DNA of 41,976 bases from Candidatus Parcubacteria bacterium (GTDB lineage Bacteria > Patescibacteriota > Minisyncoccia > Phycocordibacterales > UBA12088): the NCBI GenBank assembly GCA_003694545.1, contig RFKD01000040.1:1-41976 (forward strand), given 5' to 3'. Both the position numbers and the translations under genes were made by a program. Shown here in pieces: positions 11,271-16,325 of the stretch (position 1 is the stretch's first letter; each line of letters starts with the position of its first letter). Under the pieces are notes generated by a model. The model saw only the letters and a program-made list of their open reading frames with translations, made no database searches and had not been told where the DNA came from.

Positions 11271-11603
11271 ATGGACTTTTCGGAATACCAAGAGCATGCG
11301 CTCGAGACTTTTCTGCAATCCAAAGAGTGGGAATTTGCGGTTCCGTACCTCGTGTTGGGGCTGAACGGTGAAGCTGGGGAAGTTGCGGAAAAAGTGAAGA
11401 AGCTGTACCGCGACGCCGGTGGCGTTCTGACGCCAGAGGCGCGCGAAGCGATCGTGAAAGAAATGGGAGATGTGCTGTGGTACCTGGCGGTGTTGGCGCA
11501 TGTGCTGGAGGTGCCCTTGGAGGAGGTTGCGTGCCAGAACATCGAAAAACTCGCGAGTCGCAAGGAGCGGGGGGCCCTGCGTGGTGAAGGAGACAACCGA
11601 TAG
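11271..11603 (+). CDS. MazG-like nucleotide pyrophosphohydrolase
   Basis: A 110-residue all-alpha protein of the MazG/dUTPase-2 superfamily. LVLGLNGEAGEVAEKVKKLYRD carries the GExGE-type metal-binding helix, and VKEMGDVLWYLAVLAHVL carries the ExxD helix, so four acidic Mg ligands are present. Such enzymes hydrolyse NTPs or dNTPs to monophosphate and pyrophosphate, cleaning the pool of non-canonical nucleotides. It lies between nusG and rplK, which normally adjoin. It could supply dUMP alongside the dcd/thyX/tmk block nearby, but that is inference. Confidence 0.85.
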   Translation: MDFSEYQEHALETFLQSKEWEFAVPYLVLGLNGEAGEVAEKVKKLYRDAGGVLTPEAREAIVKEMGDVLWYLAVLAHVLEVPLEEVACQNIEKLASRKERGALRGEGDNR

Positions 11604-12102: not shown

Positions 12103-12795
12103 TTACCTGTGCCGTGGGTTTTCTTGCTGCGGTTGACTCACTTCTCTGTCGGCCCACAGACGCGGCAGCATCATTTCCGGTTTCCATTGGCGTTTCAGAG
12201 CGGCAAGATCATTTGCCGCGGCGTATTTTCCGTTGCGGGCATAATCATCTTTGAGAATAGGGCCCGTTTCAAAAAACACGATTTGCGCGATGCGCCGCCC
12301 CACGATGAGCGGGATGGTGTAGTGGCGGGAGTTATTCGTTATTTCCATCGTCCAGCGGTTGATGTAGCCGACATCGCCCCATCCCGCACATTTGCACACC
12401 TCAATAAAACTGCGCCCATAGGAAGAGCGCGCTTTCATCATCGTGGTGATGTGGCGGAGTCCACCGATAAATTCTTCCGTGTGCGCGAGAATTGTCTCTC
12501 CCGGCTCGAGGAGAATGACTTTGTCGTTGGGGTTAACACCCAACTCCTCAAGATCATACCCCGCGAGCGCTCGCGAAGCTGGTTGGGCGCGATGCGGCTT
12601 TGGTCCCCATACGCGCTCGATATGTTTGCGATTGTAAATGTTGTACACAGGCAAGGAGGTGCGCGATTCTCGGTAGTACCACTCTCCTAAGGTTACATCG
12701 TAACTTGCGGTTCCAAGGTTGTCGCGGCGAAAAGGAGAAATAACAATATCGCCTGCTTTCAAGGCTTCAAGGATCCGCTGGTCGGAATACGCCAT
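12103..12795 (-). CDS. dcd: dCTP deaminase / dUTPase-family protein
   Basis: A 230-residue trimeric-fold protein. It shows ILEALKAGDIVISPF and GTASYDVTLG (the dCTP deaminase start), then LLEPGETILAHTEEFIGGL. The catalytic block follows: MMKARSSYGRSFIEVCKCAGWGDVGYINRWTMEITNNS, with the SSxGR and the G-W-x-D-x-G motifs and the Glu in MEITN, and GRRIAQIVFFE. Dcd deaminates dCTP to dUTP; some members also cut dUTP to dUMP. Placement behind thyX on the same strand and near tmk fits dTMP supply. It has its own TATACT (12806-12811, minus), 10 nt before the ATG. Confidence 0.88.
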   Translation of the reverse strand: MAYSDQRILEALKAGDIVISPFRRDNLGTASYDVTLGEWYYRESRTSLPVYNIYNRKHIERVWGPKPHRAQPASRALAGYDLEELGVNPNDKVILLEPGETILAHTEEFIGGLRHITTMMKARSSYGRSFIEVCKCAGWGDVGYINRWTMEITNNSRHYTIPLIVGRRIAQIVFFETGPILKDDYARNGKYAAANDLAALKRQWKPEMMLPRLWADREVSQPQQENPRHR

Positions 12796-12843: not shown

Positions 12844-14262
12844 TTAGGCGGAGCTATCTTTTGCGTTTGTGCGTTCCTCCGCTTCAGAGAGGCGTTGTTG
12901 CCCTCCTTGCGCGGCGACGAAAATATCCTGCTTCCCTCGGGCGACATCAAACCGATCGGGCTGTGCGTCCAAGTGGAGAGTGAGGCCGCACCAAGCGAAG
13001 CGCTCTTGGAGGAGCGCGGCTGTTTGCAAGACAAACGCCCGCAGGGTGGGGTGCACAAAACGCGTTGATCGCAACTCGATCAAATACACAAGCGCGCGCA
13101 AATCGCCGCGAAGGGAAATAGGAACGCGGTATCCCATTGGAAGGTAATACTGCGCCGTAGGAGGTTCGAGGTTAAGCGCGTGCAATCGTTCCTCCTGCTT
13201 TTTGATGAGATCGCGCGCTTCGTCGCGTGCGTCTTGCGGCAATTCTTCAAGATACCACGGGTGAAACCCAAAATGCGGTGTAAGCAAGGGGGGCGCTTGC
13301 GTGAGCGCGCGGTGGCGTTGTAAGTCGCGCCACGAGCCAAAATCCAAAAGGCCCTCAATGCGCACGGAGCCCGCAAGCCCAATAATATAGGGAAGATCGC
13401 TTTTCGGCGGGCGCTCGCGCAATAAAGCTTCGTGTTCACGCAGAACATTTGAATCGGTGCCGTCGTGGGCTATGGTTGGATATTCGGGCCATTGGGCGGG
13501 GGCGAGGTAGTGGTGCGCGCCGCGCATCACTTTTTCGTAGTAGGCTTCCGTGGCTTCGTAGAACTTGCGGGAAAACGAGCTGGGGAACGCCTCAGTGAGG
13601 GCATCAAGCGTCGCCTCGGCAATCTCTCGCACCTCGACAAGGGGGTGGTGCCGCAGGGGCAAGAGCGCGTCGGCAAACTGCCGTAGTGTGCCGTGCCACG
13701 CGATATTGGTTGCTGTTCCGGCCGGAAGGAAGGCGCGCAAAATGTCAAACGCGCGGGCGGCAACAGCCTTTTCGTAAAGTTTTTCGTCTTCGTCAGGGTT
13801 GCGCACAAAGCGCTCGCGTACCCACGCGCGCGTGGGTTCCTGGGAGCGTTGGTAAAAGGAGCGCCAAACTTCTTGGATGTGTTGTGCCTCTTTTGTTCCC
13901 GCCGGGTTTATTAACGGCTGGCGAGAAAAGTCGATATAACGCGTTGACGATTCTTGGCCGTTATACAACGGCCAATGTTGGAGCGCTTTTGCGGCCAACA
14001 TGGAAATGCCTTCAACAAAAACGGTTGCGGACCCCAAGTCGCCGATGGATTTATGGCCGTAGCCAACATAGTAGGTCTCCATAAAGCGGCTCGGGCCTTT
14101 TGCCGCGAGTGTCTCCAGGTGCGCCTGAACGCCGCCGGTGGACCGGGAGTGCAAGGCAGCGAGCATAGCCTGCGCCTCAGGAGTAATTGTGGCCCCGGTG
14201 TTCAGGACGAGCACACTACCGCCGCTTGATAGGGTCCGCACGGTATGTGGCAAGGGTTTCAT
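12844..14262 (-). CDS. thyX: Tandem ThyX-like protein (FAD-dependent thymidylate synthase family)
   Basis: A 472-residue protein, about twice the usual ThyX length. Domain 1 (about 30-230) has GHKSIGDLGSATVFVEGIS, then LQHWPLYNGQESSTRYIDF (residues 94-112), and the later LPAGTATNIAWHGTLRQFADALLPLR element. Domain 2 (about 285-450) has GSVRIEGLLDFGSWRDLQRHRALTQ (RHR at 316-318) and PMGYRVPISLRGDLRALVYLIELRS. ThyX methylates dUMP using methylene-THF and FADH2. The RHRx7S signature is split: domain 1 keeps the S-x-RY half, domain 2 keeps RHR. Start 14262 follows TGCTATACT by 9 nt; the longer track start is rejected. Activity is inferred. Confidence 0.82.
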   Translation of the reverse strand: MKPLPHTVRTLSSGGSVLVLNTGATITPEAQAMLAALHSRSTGGVQAHLETLAAKGPSRFMETYYVGYGHKSIGDLGSATVFVEGISMLAAKALQHWPLYNGQESSTRYIDFSRQPLINPAGTKEAQHIQEVWRSFYQRSQEPTRAWVRERFVRNPDEDEKLYEKAVAARAFDILRAFLPAGTATNIAWHGTLRQFADALLPLRHHPLVEVREIAEATLDALTEAFPSSFSRKFYEATEAYYEKVMRGAHHYLAPAQWPEYPTIAHDGTDSNVLREHEALLRERPPKSDLPYIIGLAGSVRIEGLLDFGSWRDLQRHRALTQAPPLLTPHFGFHPWYLEELPQDARDEARDLIKKQEERLHALNLEPPTAQYYLPMGYRVPISLRGDLRALVYLIELRSTRFVHPTLRAFVLQTAALLQERFAWCGLTLHLDAQPDRFDVARGKQDIFVAAQGGQQRLSEAEERTNAKDSSA

Positions 14263-14325: not shown

Positions 14326-14973
14326 ATGGCGAAGCGGCGCGGTTTCTTTGTTGTCATAGAGGGGACAGATGGTTCGGGAAAGTCTAGTGTCATCGAAAAA
14401 CTGAAGTCGCGGTTTGCTGAGGCGCTGTTCACTCGTGAGCCGGGGGGTACGCCGTTTGCGGAGGCGTTGCGAGGAGTGATGTTTGGCGCACCAGGCGCTC
14501 AAGACGCGGACGGTTTGACACACCTTCTCCTTCACTATGCCGCGCGGCGCGATCATCTGCTCAAATGCATTGCGCCCGCGCTTGCGGAGGGCAACCTTGT
14601 CGTATGTGACCGTTTTGCCGCTTCCTCGTGGGCGTATAATGTGCGGGGCCAGGAGTGCGCCGCGTGCGAGGGGGTGTTTGCGCCATTGCATCAGGCAGCA
14701 GTAGGGCAATATGAGCCTGACGCATACATTTGGCTTGACATACCTCCTGAAGTCGCCCACGAGCGCAGGCGTGCCGCGGGTGCGCAAAACCATTTTGATA
14801 CGCAAGACGCCGCCTTTCAGGAGCGGGTATATGAGGCGTACACAGAGTATTTCACCCAACATTTTTCAGGGAAACTTGTGCGTGTTGACGCCGCGCAATC
14901 CTTAGCGACAGTTGTGAGGGAAGTCGCTGAGCGGATTTCGCGTGAGTGGGAGCGGCGGAAAAACGGACTGTAA
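14326..14973 (+). CDS. tmk: Thymidylate kinase
   Basis: A 215-residue P-loop kinase that phosphorylates dTMP to dTDP. The P-loop IEGTDGSGKSS (residues 11-21), the FTREPGGTPFAEALR dTMP-binding motif, the DRFAASSWAYNVRG motif and WLDIPPEVAHERRR (the LID region) are in the expected order. An extra CAACEG segment adds two Cys close to the nucleotide site. It is divergent from the tandem thyX gene and, with dcd, forms a dTTP-synthesis block. Leaderless by promoter position. Confidence 0.95.
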   Translation: MAKRRGFFVVIEGTDGSGKSSVIEKLKSRFAEALFTREPGGTPFAEALRGVMFGAPGAQDADGLTHLLLHYAARRDHLLKCIAPALAEGNLVVCDRFAASSWAYNVRGQECAACEGVFAPLHQAAVGQYEPDAYIWLDIPPEVAHERRRAAGAQNHFDTQDAAFQERVYEAYTEYFTQHFSGKLVRVDAAQSLATVVREVAERISREWERRKNGL

Positions 14974-15044
14974 GTTGAGTGCCAAAAGCGTATGGTGTAA
15001 CGAGCGCCTCTTTCTCTTTACCCGCTAGCAGTTTCTTTTTGCGT

Positions 15045-16325
15045 ATGGACAATGTGTGTTTGGCTTTTCTTTCACAACAAGACCCAGACATTGCCGATGC
15101 GATTGACGGCGAACACCGACGGCAAGCGGAAGGGCTTGAGCTGATTCCGTCGGAAAACTATGTGTCCCGCGCGGTGCGCGAGGCGCTCGCAAGCGAGCTC
15201 ACGAATAAATATTCTGAAGGGTATCCCGGCAAACGCTACTATGGCGGGCAGGAGTTTACCGACGCAGTGGAGCGACTCGCGATCGAGCGGGCACGGCAGC
15301 TGTTTGGCGCGCGATTTGTGAATGTGCAACCGTTGTCGGGGGCGCCAGCCAACCTCGCGGCGTATATGGCGCTTCTCGAGCCTGGCGACACCGTTTTAGG
15401 GATGAATCTCGCGCACGGCGGGCACCTCACGCATGGGCACCCTCTGACATTGCCCGCGAAGATTTACCGTTTTGTAAACTACGGCGTCACCGATCGCGAC
15501 AGTGCGGAGATTGACTACGACGCTCTGCGCGATCTTGCCCTGCGCGAACGCCCCAAACTCATCCTTGCCGGCTTTTCCGCCTACCCTAAGCATCTCCAGT
15601 GGAAGCGTTTCAAAGAAATTGCTGACGAAGTCGGCGCTTACACAATGGCTGATGTAGCGCACATTGCTGGATTGATTGTCGCAGGTGTTGAAGAAAACCC
15701 GCTTGCCGCAGGATTTGATGTGGTAACAACCACGACCCACAAAACCCTGCGCGGCCCGCGCGGCGGGCTTATCCTCACCAACCGTGAGGATATCGCGGCG
15801 GTCGTGGATAAGGCGGTTTTCCCCGGCGTGCAGGGCGGGCCGCACATGAACAACATTGCGGCAAAAGCGGTCGCGTTTCTGGAGGCTCAGCATCCCATGT
15901 TTCGCGATTATGCTAGGCAGATTGTGGCGAACGCCCGCGCGATGGCGGAAGTGTTCGCGGCAGAAGGGGTGAGGATGGTTGGTGGTGGAACGGAAAATCA
16001 CCTCATCCTCGTTGACGCCATGACTTCATTTGGCGTGGGTGGAAAAGAAGCGCAAGACTTGTTGGATGACGCCGGCATCACGCTCAATAAAAACGCGGTG
16101 CCGTTTGACGAGCGCAAGCCGATGGATCCTTCGGGTATTCGGCTCGGCACGCCCGCGATGACAACGCGCGGGATGCGGGAAAAGGAGGCGCGGCAGGTGG
16201 CCCAATGGATTATTGCGGTTTTGCGCGCGCCACAAGACGCGCAAGTGCGCAAGAAGGTGCGTGAAGAAGTGCGCGCGCTGTGCGCCCAGTTTCCCATTCC
16301 AGAGAGGTTTGTGCCCGCCGTTTAG
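15045..16325 (+). CDS. glyA: Serine hydroxymethyltransferase
   Basis: A 426-residue PLP enzyme that converts serine and THF to glycine and 5,10-methylene-THF, the one-carbon donor needed by ThyX upstream. ELIPSENYVSRAVREALASELTNKYSEGYPGKRYYGG, NVQPLSGAPANLAAYMALL and DVVTTTTHKTLRGPRGG (PLP lysine at about residue 233) are all canonical, as is GIRLGTPAMTTRGM. ATG 15045 gives a normal N-terminus; the track start 14979 adds an unrelated 22 residues. No clear -10 element at leaderless spacing is seen, so it may be cotranscribed with tmk. Confidence 0.96.
   Translation: MDNVCLAFLSQQDPDIADAIDGEHRRQAEGLELIPSENYVSRAVREALASELTNKYSEGYPGKRYYGGQEFTDAVERLAIERARQLFGARFVNVQPLSGAPANLAAYMALLEPGDTVLGMNLAHGGHLTHGHPLTLPAKIYRFVNYGVTDRDSAEIDYDALRDLALRERPKLILAGFSAYPKHLQWKRFKEIADEVGAYTMADVAHIAGLIVAGVEENPLAAGFDVVTTTTHKTLRGPRGGLILTNREDIAAVVDKAVFPGVQGGPHMNNIAAKAVAFLEAQHPMFRDYARQIVANARAMAEVFAAEGVRMVGGGTENHLILVDAMTSFGVGGKEAQDLLDDAGITLNKNAVPFDERKPMDPSGIRLGTPAMTTRGMREKEARQVAQWIIAVLRAPQDAQVRKKVREEVRALCAQFPIPERFVPAV

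Follow-up and report, generated by a model that had tools for sequence, protein, structure and literature searches.

The tandem ThyX gene and its neighbours

The window (the whole 41,976-nt stretch of DNA that was analysed) carries an open frame on the minus strand with two matches to the Pfam Thy1 family (PF02511) within the single frame. The plus-strand reading of the same interval was ruled out by several stops. Its ATG lies 63 bases from the start of tmk, and the next gene beyond tmk is glyA; a dCTP deaminase-like gene (DCD) and a mazG-type gene lie on the other side (Table 1). Among 80 other tandem loci, many of which are cut by contig ends, tmk was a neighbour in 28, DCD in 23, glyA in 22 and mazG in 17.

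Table 1. Genes, domains and conserved elements at the tandem ThyX locus, in order of position. Mtb = M. tuberculosis ThyX, Tm = T. maritima ThyX; A1 and A2 are alignments of tandem proteins.
Feature	Position	Strand	Remarks
MazG-type NTP pyrophosphohydrolase	11271..11603	+	PF03819, 8.3e-12
dCTP deaminase-like (DCD) gene	12103..12795	-	PF22769, 4.7e-32; dUMP supply side
Tandem ThyX coding sequence	12844..14262	-	472 aa; ATG at 14262, stop at 12844
C-terminal tail, LHLDxxPxRFDxxRGxQDI	12922..12984	-	conserved (A1), absent from canonical ThyX
C-half ThyX-fold domain	13000..13515	-	residues about 250-421; AlphaFold2, PDB structure matches, hhalign
L397-R398...V403-H404, LR...H element	13051..13074	-	kept
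Q371 at the position of Arg before LP	13150..13152	-	Arg lost
L326-L-T328-P at the S-x-R-Y position	13276..13287	-	loop lost
R316-H317-R318, RHR motif	13309..13317	-	kept; R316 and R318 invariant in A1
N-half ThyX domain	13567..14190	-	residues about 25-232; Pfam Thy1, hhalign, AlphaFold2
R194	13681..13683	-	Mtb R190 / Tm R165 equivalent, kept; invariant in A1/A2
R176 before LP	13735..13737	-	Tm R147 equivalent, kept
E104-S-S106-T-R108-Y109	13936..13953	-	dUMP/flavin loop, kept
H96-W97-P98 at the RHR position	13969..13977	-	RHR lost; DWP in most relatives
GHKS, residues 69-72	14047..14058	-	subunit-B-type FAD element (Mtb H69, S71), kept
tmk, dTMP kinase	14326..14973	+	TIGR00041, 138 bits; divergent neighbour
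glyA, serine hydroxymethyltransferase	14979..16325	+	makes the CH2-THF donor

Thy1 matched the N-half (residues 31-228) strongly; the E-value was 7.6e-18 in the genome search, and 1.1e-22 when the whole protein was taken. The match to the C-half was weak, at 2.2e-4. The window protein passed the Thy1 gathering score (81.2 bits vs 24.8) and missed the cut-off of the NCBIfam thyX equivalog, TIGR02170 (57.7 vs 87.9 bits). The latter model was matched by 16 of the 17 tandem relatives in alignment A1, with a best E no better than 1.1e-15. Thy1 was the only family matched by the window protein, there being no match to ThyA (PF00303).

Fold of the two halves

An AlphaFold2 model of the whole chain, made from a 17-sequence alignment, had a pLDDT of 87 and a pTM of 0.84. 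The order strand-helix-...-long helix-helix-strand-helix-helix appears twice in it, and its top structural match in Foldseek was Mtb ThyX. Folded alone, the C-half gave a pLDDT of 91.8, and the best 50 PDB matches listed for that model were ThyX chains only (top E 5e-7). A ThyX fold is therefore predicted for both halves, which was one of the checks proposed when the locus was read from its sequence alone (hereafter the sequence-only reading). Comparison with canonical ThyX by hhalign gave a probability of 96.9% (E 1e-10) for the N-half and 62.6% (E 7e-5) for the C-half. Direct comparison of the N-half and C-half profiles was not significant (2.5%), so the case for internal homology is made from the fold and the motif. 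Nothing significant was found when the C-half profile was run against PDB sequences; the top match, at 0.081, was not a ThyX, and ThyX appeared at 0.86. Taken together, Pfam, the motif and the predicted fold support assignment of the C-half as a ThyX domain.

Division of the conserved elements

In canonical ThyX, including the single-domain ThyX from other members of the same order, GH..E, RHR and S-x-R are found in one chain (alignment A4), together with the Arg before LP, N-x-R and the LR-loop Arg. Like canonical ThyX, the tandem chain as a whole lacks none of the catalytic and FAD-contacting residues, and those conserved for FAD and dUMP are all within the window polypeptide, divided over both halves. 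Unlike canonical ThyX, it consists of two domains, each without elements that the other keeps. RHR and S do not stand in one RHRx7S stretch of one domain; RHR occurs in the C-half only, and S-x-R-Y in the N-half only.

In the N-half, H70 and S72 of the GHxS element are invariant in alignments A1/A2, as are E104, S106 and R108 of the following loop. S106, R108 and Y109 are the counterparts of Mtb S105, R107 and Y108, and of Tm S88, R90 and Y91. The position of R176 is nearly invariant in A2, and is R in 152 of 162 tandem proteins. Equivalence of R194 to Mtb R190 and Tm R165 requires a one-residue gap. Mtb Arg87, a subunit C residue, has no counterpart in the N-half, and T. maritima ThyX is also without it. 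The sequence-only reading had NGQESSTRY retained in the first domain, and this was borne out at residues 101-109. It had also taken QHW (95-97) as the variant of RHR, which is one residue off. The RHR-x7-S spacing in an ungapped alignment to Mtb ThyX rules out QHW opposite RHR and places H96-W97-P98 (D-W-P in most relatives) there; the catalytic Ser is then S106 rather than S105.

In the C-half, RHR was found at residues 316-318, as first read. The S and R of the loop are replaced by L and T, and GHxS is absent. The LR...H element is the counterpart of Mtb R199 and of Tm R174 and H178, with matching columns in hhalign, and is invariant in the tandem alignments A1 and A3. An LR element had been proposed for each half; L397-R398 of the C-half stands, but L203-R204 of the N-half is not conserved. 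R442, in the C-terminal tail, is invariant in alignment A1.

Conservation of the split

The tally of the split, anchored on the N-half motif, covers 162 distinct tandem proteins; they come from Patescibacteria, large phages, Euzebya and Parabacteroides. S-x-R-[YF] is present in the N-half of all 162, in part by selection, because most loci were recruited by patterns that include this motif. It is accompanied by RxR in the C-half in 161. The reciprocal elements, RHR in the N-half and S-x-R in the C-half, were found in none of the 162, which agrees with the earlier statement that the second domain is without S-x-RY. This bias does not touch the tally for the C-half, nor the loci that came from HMM or profile searches, and subfamilies recruited solely by such searches show the same split. 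Judged from the sequences, the complementary loss across the tandem proteins exceeds chance. The central claim of the sequence-only reading, a tandem ThyX with its signature divided between the halves, thus holds for the window protein and is conserved in its relatives. The sole outlier for RxR is a 583-aa protein (L027:1066-2814, genome G049) with RMG in place of RHR in the C-half; its genome is without a detected ThyA.

The same tally bears on two other explanations. The N-half fits Thy1 far better than the C-half and retains the catalytic Ser loop, so that it might be catalytic alone, as in ordinary ThyX, with the C-half a degenerate structural or regulatory copy. This is most improbable, as not one of the 162 N-halves has RHR, 161 of the C-halves have RxR plus LR...H, and a degenerate copy would not retain exactly the part that is missing from the other half. 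The split could also be an artefact, if the frame were chimeric or frameshifted, or if it were a pseudogene confined to a single metagenome assembly. The source genome is indeed an assembly of 65 contigs and one relative, L013, carries an in-frame TGA, but more than 160 distinct proteins, from many genomes, phages and plasmids, have this open frame and this split, which refutes the explanation; we give it practically no weight.

Distribution

A survey of other genomes of the candidate phyla radiation, suggested by the sequence-only reading, found the same split in several deep subfamilies. Of 287 genomes chosen from across the phylum, 67 gave relatives in the profile search. The loci that were read out were tandem proteins of about 430-620 aa, all with the split; the search also gave matches to one half only and longer frames of up to 796 aa, which are outside the loci read. 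A pattern scan of the genome contigs gave 261 relatives, and the best 80 of these include Moranbacteria, Kaiserbacteria, Nomurabacteria, Uhrbacteria and others. In viral contigs, an alignment as the query found 57 loci with full-length homologues; a search of viral sequences with the window protein alone as query gave no match. Full-length homologues (33% identity) are present in the Vibrio phages BONAISHI and Yong, and others in Microcystis phages, Tunturiibacter phages, a Euzebya pacifica megaplasmid and a Parabacteroides plasmid. Those viral and plasmid homologues whose sequences were read have the same split.

Several individual loci depart from the common form. Genome G089 has, besides one tandem ThyX frame (contig C16), a different tandem ThyX-like frame of 452 aa on another contig (L009:748-2103), with RQRx7S in the C-half and an N-half without S-x-R-Y. 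One in-frame TGA occurs in the tandem ThyX of genome G003 (L013/L042), and that of G067 (L021) ends early at 292 aa; either could be sequencing error or decay. In two viral proteins beyond the 162 (L170 and L199), the lid Tyr is replaced, the sequences being STRAMD and SSRAVD in place of S-x-R-Y, which may mean an altered substrate or inactivity.

Thymidylate supply

No second Thy1 and no ThyA were found in the source genome (92% complete, 65 contigs); a second thyA or thyX had been named beforehand as the finding that would count against the sequence-only reading. Neither DHFR nor thymidine kinase was found in the same 92%-complete genome. Among 98 relatives, ThyX was present in 27 (21 tandem and 6 single-domain) and ThyA in 59. 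Only one genome had both, and its ThyA match was weak and partial. Mutual exclusion of ThyX and ThyA was significant (Fisher p=5e-13, or 1e-10 for the tandem form only), and DHFR was present in 4 of the 21 tandem genomes vs 53 of the 58 with ThyA only (p 1e-9); these tests are uncorrected for shared ancestry, although nearly all the genomes belong to different families. ThyX chemistry leaves THF, not DHF. The scarcity of DHFR alongside the tandem ThyX is what this chemistry predicts. Like canonical ThyX, the tandem form replaces ThyA and accompanies the loss of DHFR. One genus mate of the source genome (G001) has DHFR. By the models used, 13 genomes, eg G020, G024, G037, G073 and G077, have neither ThyX nor ThyA; several of them are nearly complete.

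These data can be set against the view that the protein is a ThyX-fold nucleotide methylase with some other substrate or product. The ThyX fold can accept UMP, as in PolB (PMC5003785), modified bases could be the product of some phage members, and the lid Tyr is missing in two viral members. On the other hand, the tandem protein replaces ThyA one for one in the source genome and its relatives, tracks the loss of DHFR, and adjoins tmk and glyA. We consider this view unlikely, though a shade less so than catalysis by the N-half alone. Thymidylate synthesis in this cell probably depends on the tandem protein alone, as a flavin-dependent ThyX whose two fused domains share the labour. The supports directly in hand are the two ThyX-fold halves, the conserved complementary loss, the lack of detected ThyA and DHFR, and the gene neighbourhood; the quaternary structure, the number of live sites and the thymidylate synthase activity are what we infer.

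A proposed composite active site

Canonical ThyX is a homotetramer with 222 symmetry. Its active site sits between three monomers (PMC3498832), and the sharing of the site by subunits is also treated in PMC11940539. In the enzymes of M. tuberculosis and H. pylori (Mtb numbering), subunit A contributes RHR and Arg199 to a site, subunit B contributes Ser71 and Arg190, and subunit C the loop with Ser105, Arg107 and Tyr108 (PMC6514825). The tandem split matches these roles, the C-half having the subunit A set and the N-half the B and C sets. Because a site draws its RHR from one subunit and its SxRY loop from another, there is a reason for exactly this split.

The C-half would give the FAD-holding RHR and the LR-loop Arg which contacts uracil, in the role of subunit A. 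As a stand-in for subunit B, the N-half would give the GHxS element and R194, and as a stand-in for subunit C, the E-S-S-T-R-Y loop and R176. Two chains would pair so that their four ThyX domains form a pseudo-222 tetramer, in which the C-halves occupy positions A and D and the N-halves B and C. By symmetry, the sites at A and D would then be complete, each combining the RHR of a single C-half with remaining elements that the two chains' N-halves provide. Sites B and C would be dead, lacking every element. Every live site would need both chains, because positions B and C are the two N-halves. On this arrangement the retained elements would all be at work in live sites, and the lost ones would all have belonged to dead sites. 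FAD would carry the carbon from CH2-THF, the product of GlyA, to dUMP, and the dTMP would pass to the neighbouring Tmk.

The idea of hybrid sites in the sequence-only reading is supported by the fold predicted for both halves, the failure to find a second thyA or thyX, and the published subunit roles. It can be refined, in that a live site would combine the RHR of a C-half with two different N-halves, and the other two sites would be dead. On balance we favour a widespread class of thymidylate synthase, found in Patescibacteria and large phages, that arose when complementary loss locked in an ancient duplication of ThyX. Its members would be obligate pseudo-heterotetramers with exactly two composite live sites, each of which spans two chains. 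The space of the two vestigial sites may have been re-used, eg with the conserved C-terminal RGxQDI tail.

The mechanism of ThyX, which is a target for antibacterial drugs, relies on residues shared between subunits. The loss pattern amounts to a natural subunit-mixing experiment, indicating which residues are required from different subunits. If live and dead sites do occur together in one molecule, the binding of FAD, dUMP and folate could be studied by mutating the halves one at a time. The protein also suggests a route to dTMP in many host-dependent Patescibacteria without ThyA and DHFR, and adds a domain architecture missed by the current ThyX equivalog model.

Comparison with known systems

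Tandem proteins are already in the databases; some frames are named thymidylate synthase, and there is a PHROGs family of 491 positions. That family (phrog_36506), a long phage 'thymidylate synthase', has the same tandem layout and split. The long phage set includes gp020 of Microcystis phage LMM01 and ORF269 of Vibrio phage BONAISHI; these proteins differ in being viral, are 24-33% identical, and are annotated merely as thymidylate synthase or hypothetical. No description of a tandem ThyX or of a split site was found in the literature searched, which did not cover the work on chlamydial ThyX. The C. trachomatis ThyX is the subject of a 2005 biochemical study cited in PMC8316439; should that enzyme be of the tandem form, the activity of the class has already been demonstrated.

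The fold common to both tandem halves is that of canonical ThyX (Thy1, PF02511), represented by TM0449 of T. maritima and the M. tuberculosis enzyme. Canonical ThyX has four sites per four domains, whereas two are predicted for the tandem form. The UMP/dUMP methylase PolB likewise has a ThyX fold and a site shared by two monomers, the SxR loop in its structure being contributed by the neighbouring monomer (PMC5003785). It differs in being a single-domain homotetramer of an antibiotic pathway. T. thermophilus Thy1 (6j61), compared by title and length only, is like the tandem form longer than the usual ThyX and has an extra C-terminal domain, but its 270-aa chain has one ThyX domain and no second degenerate one.
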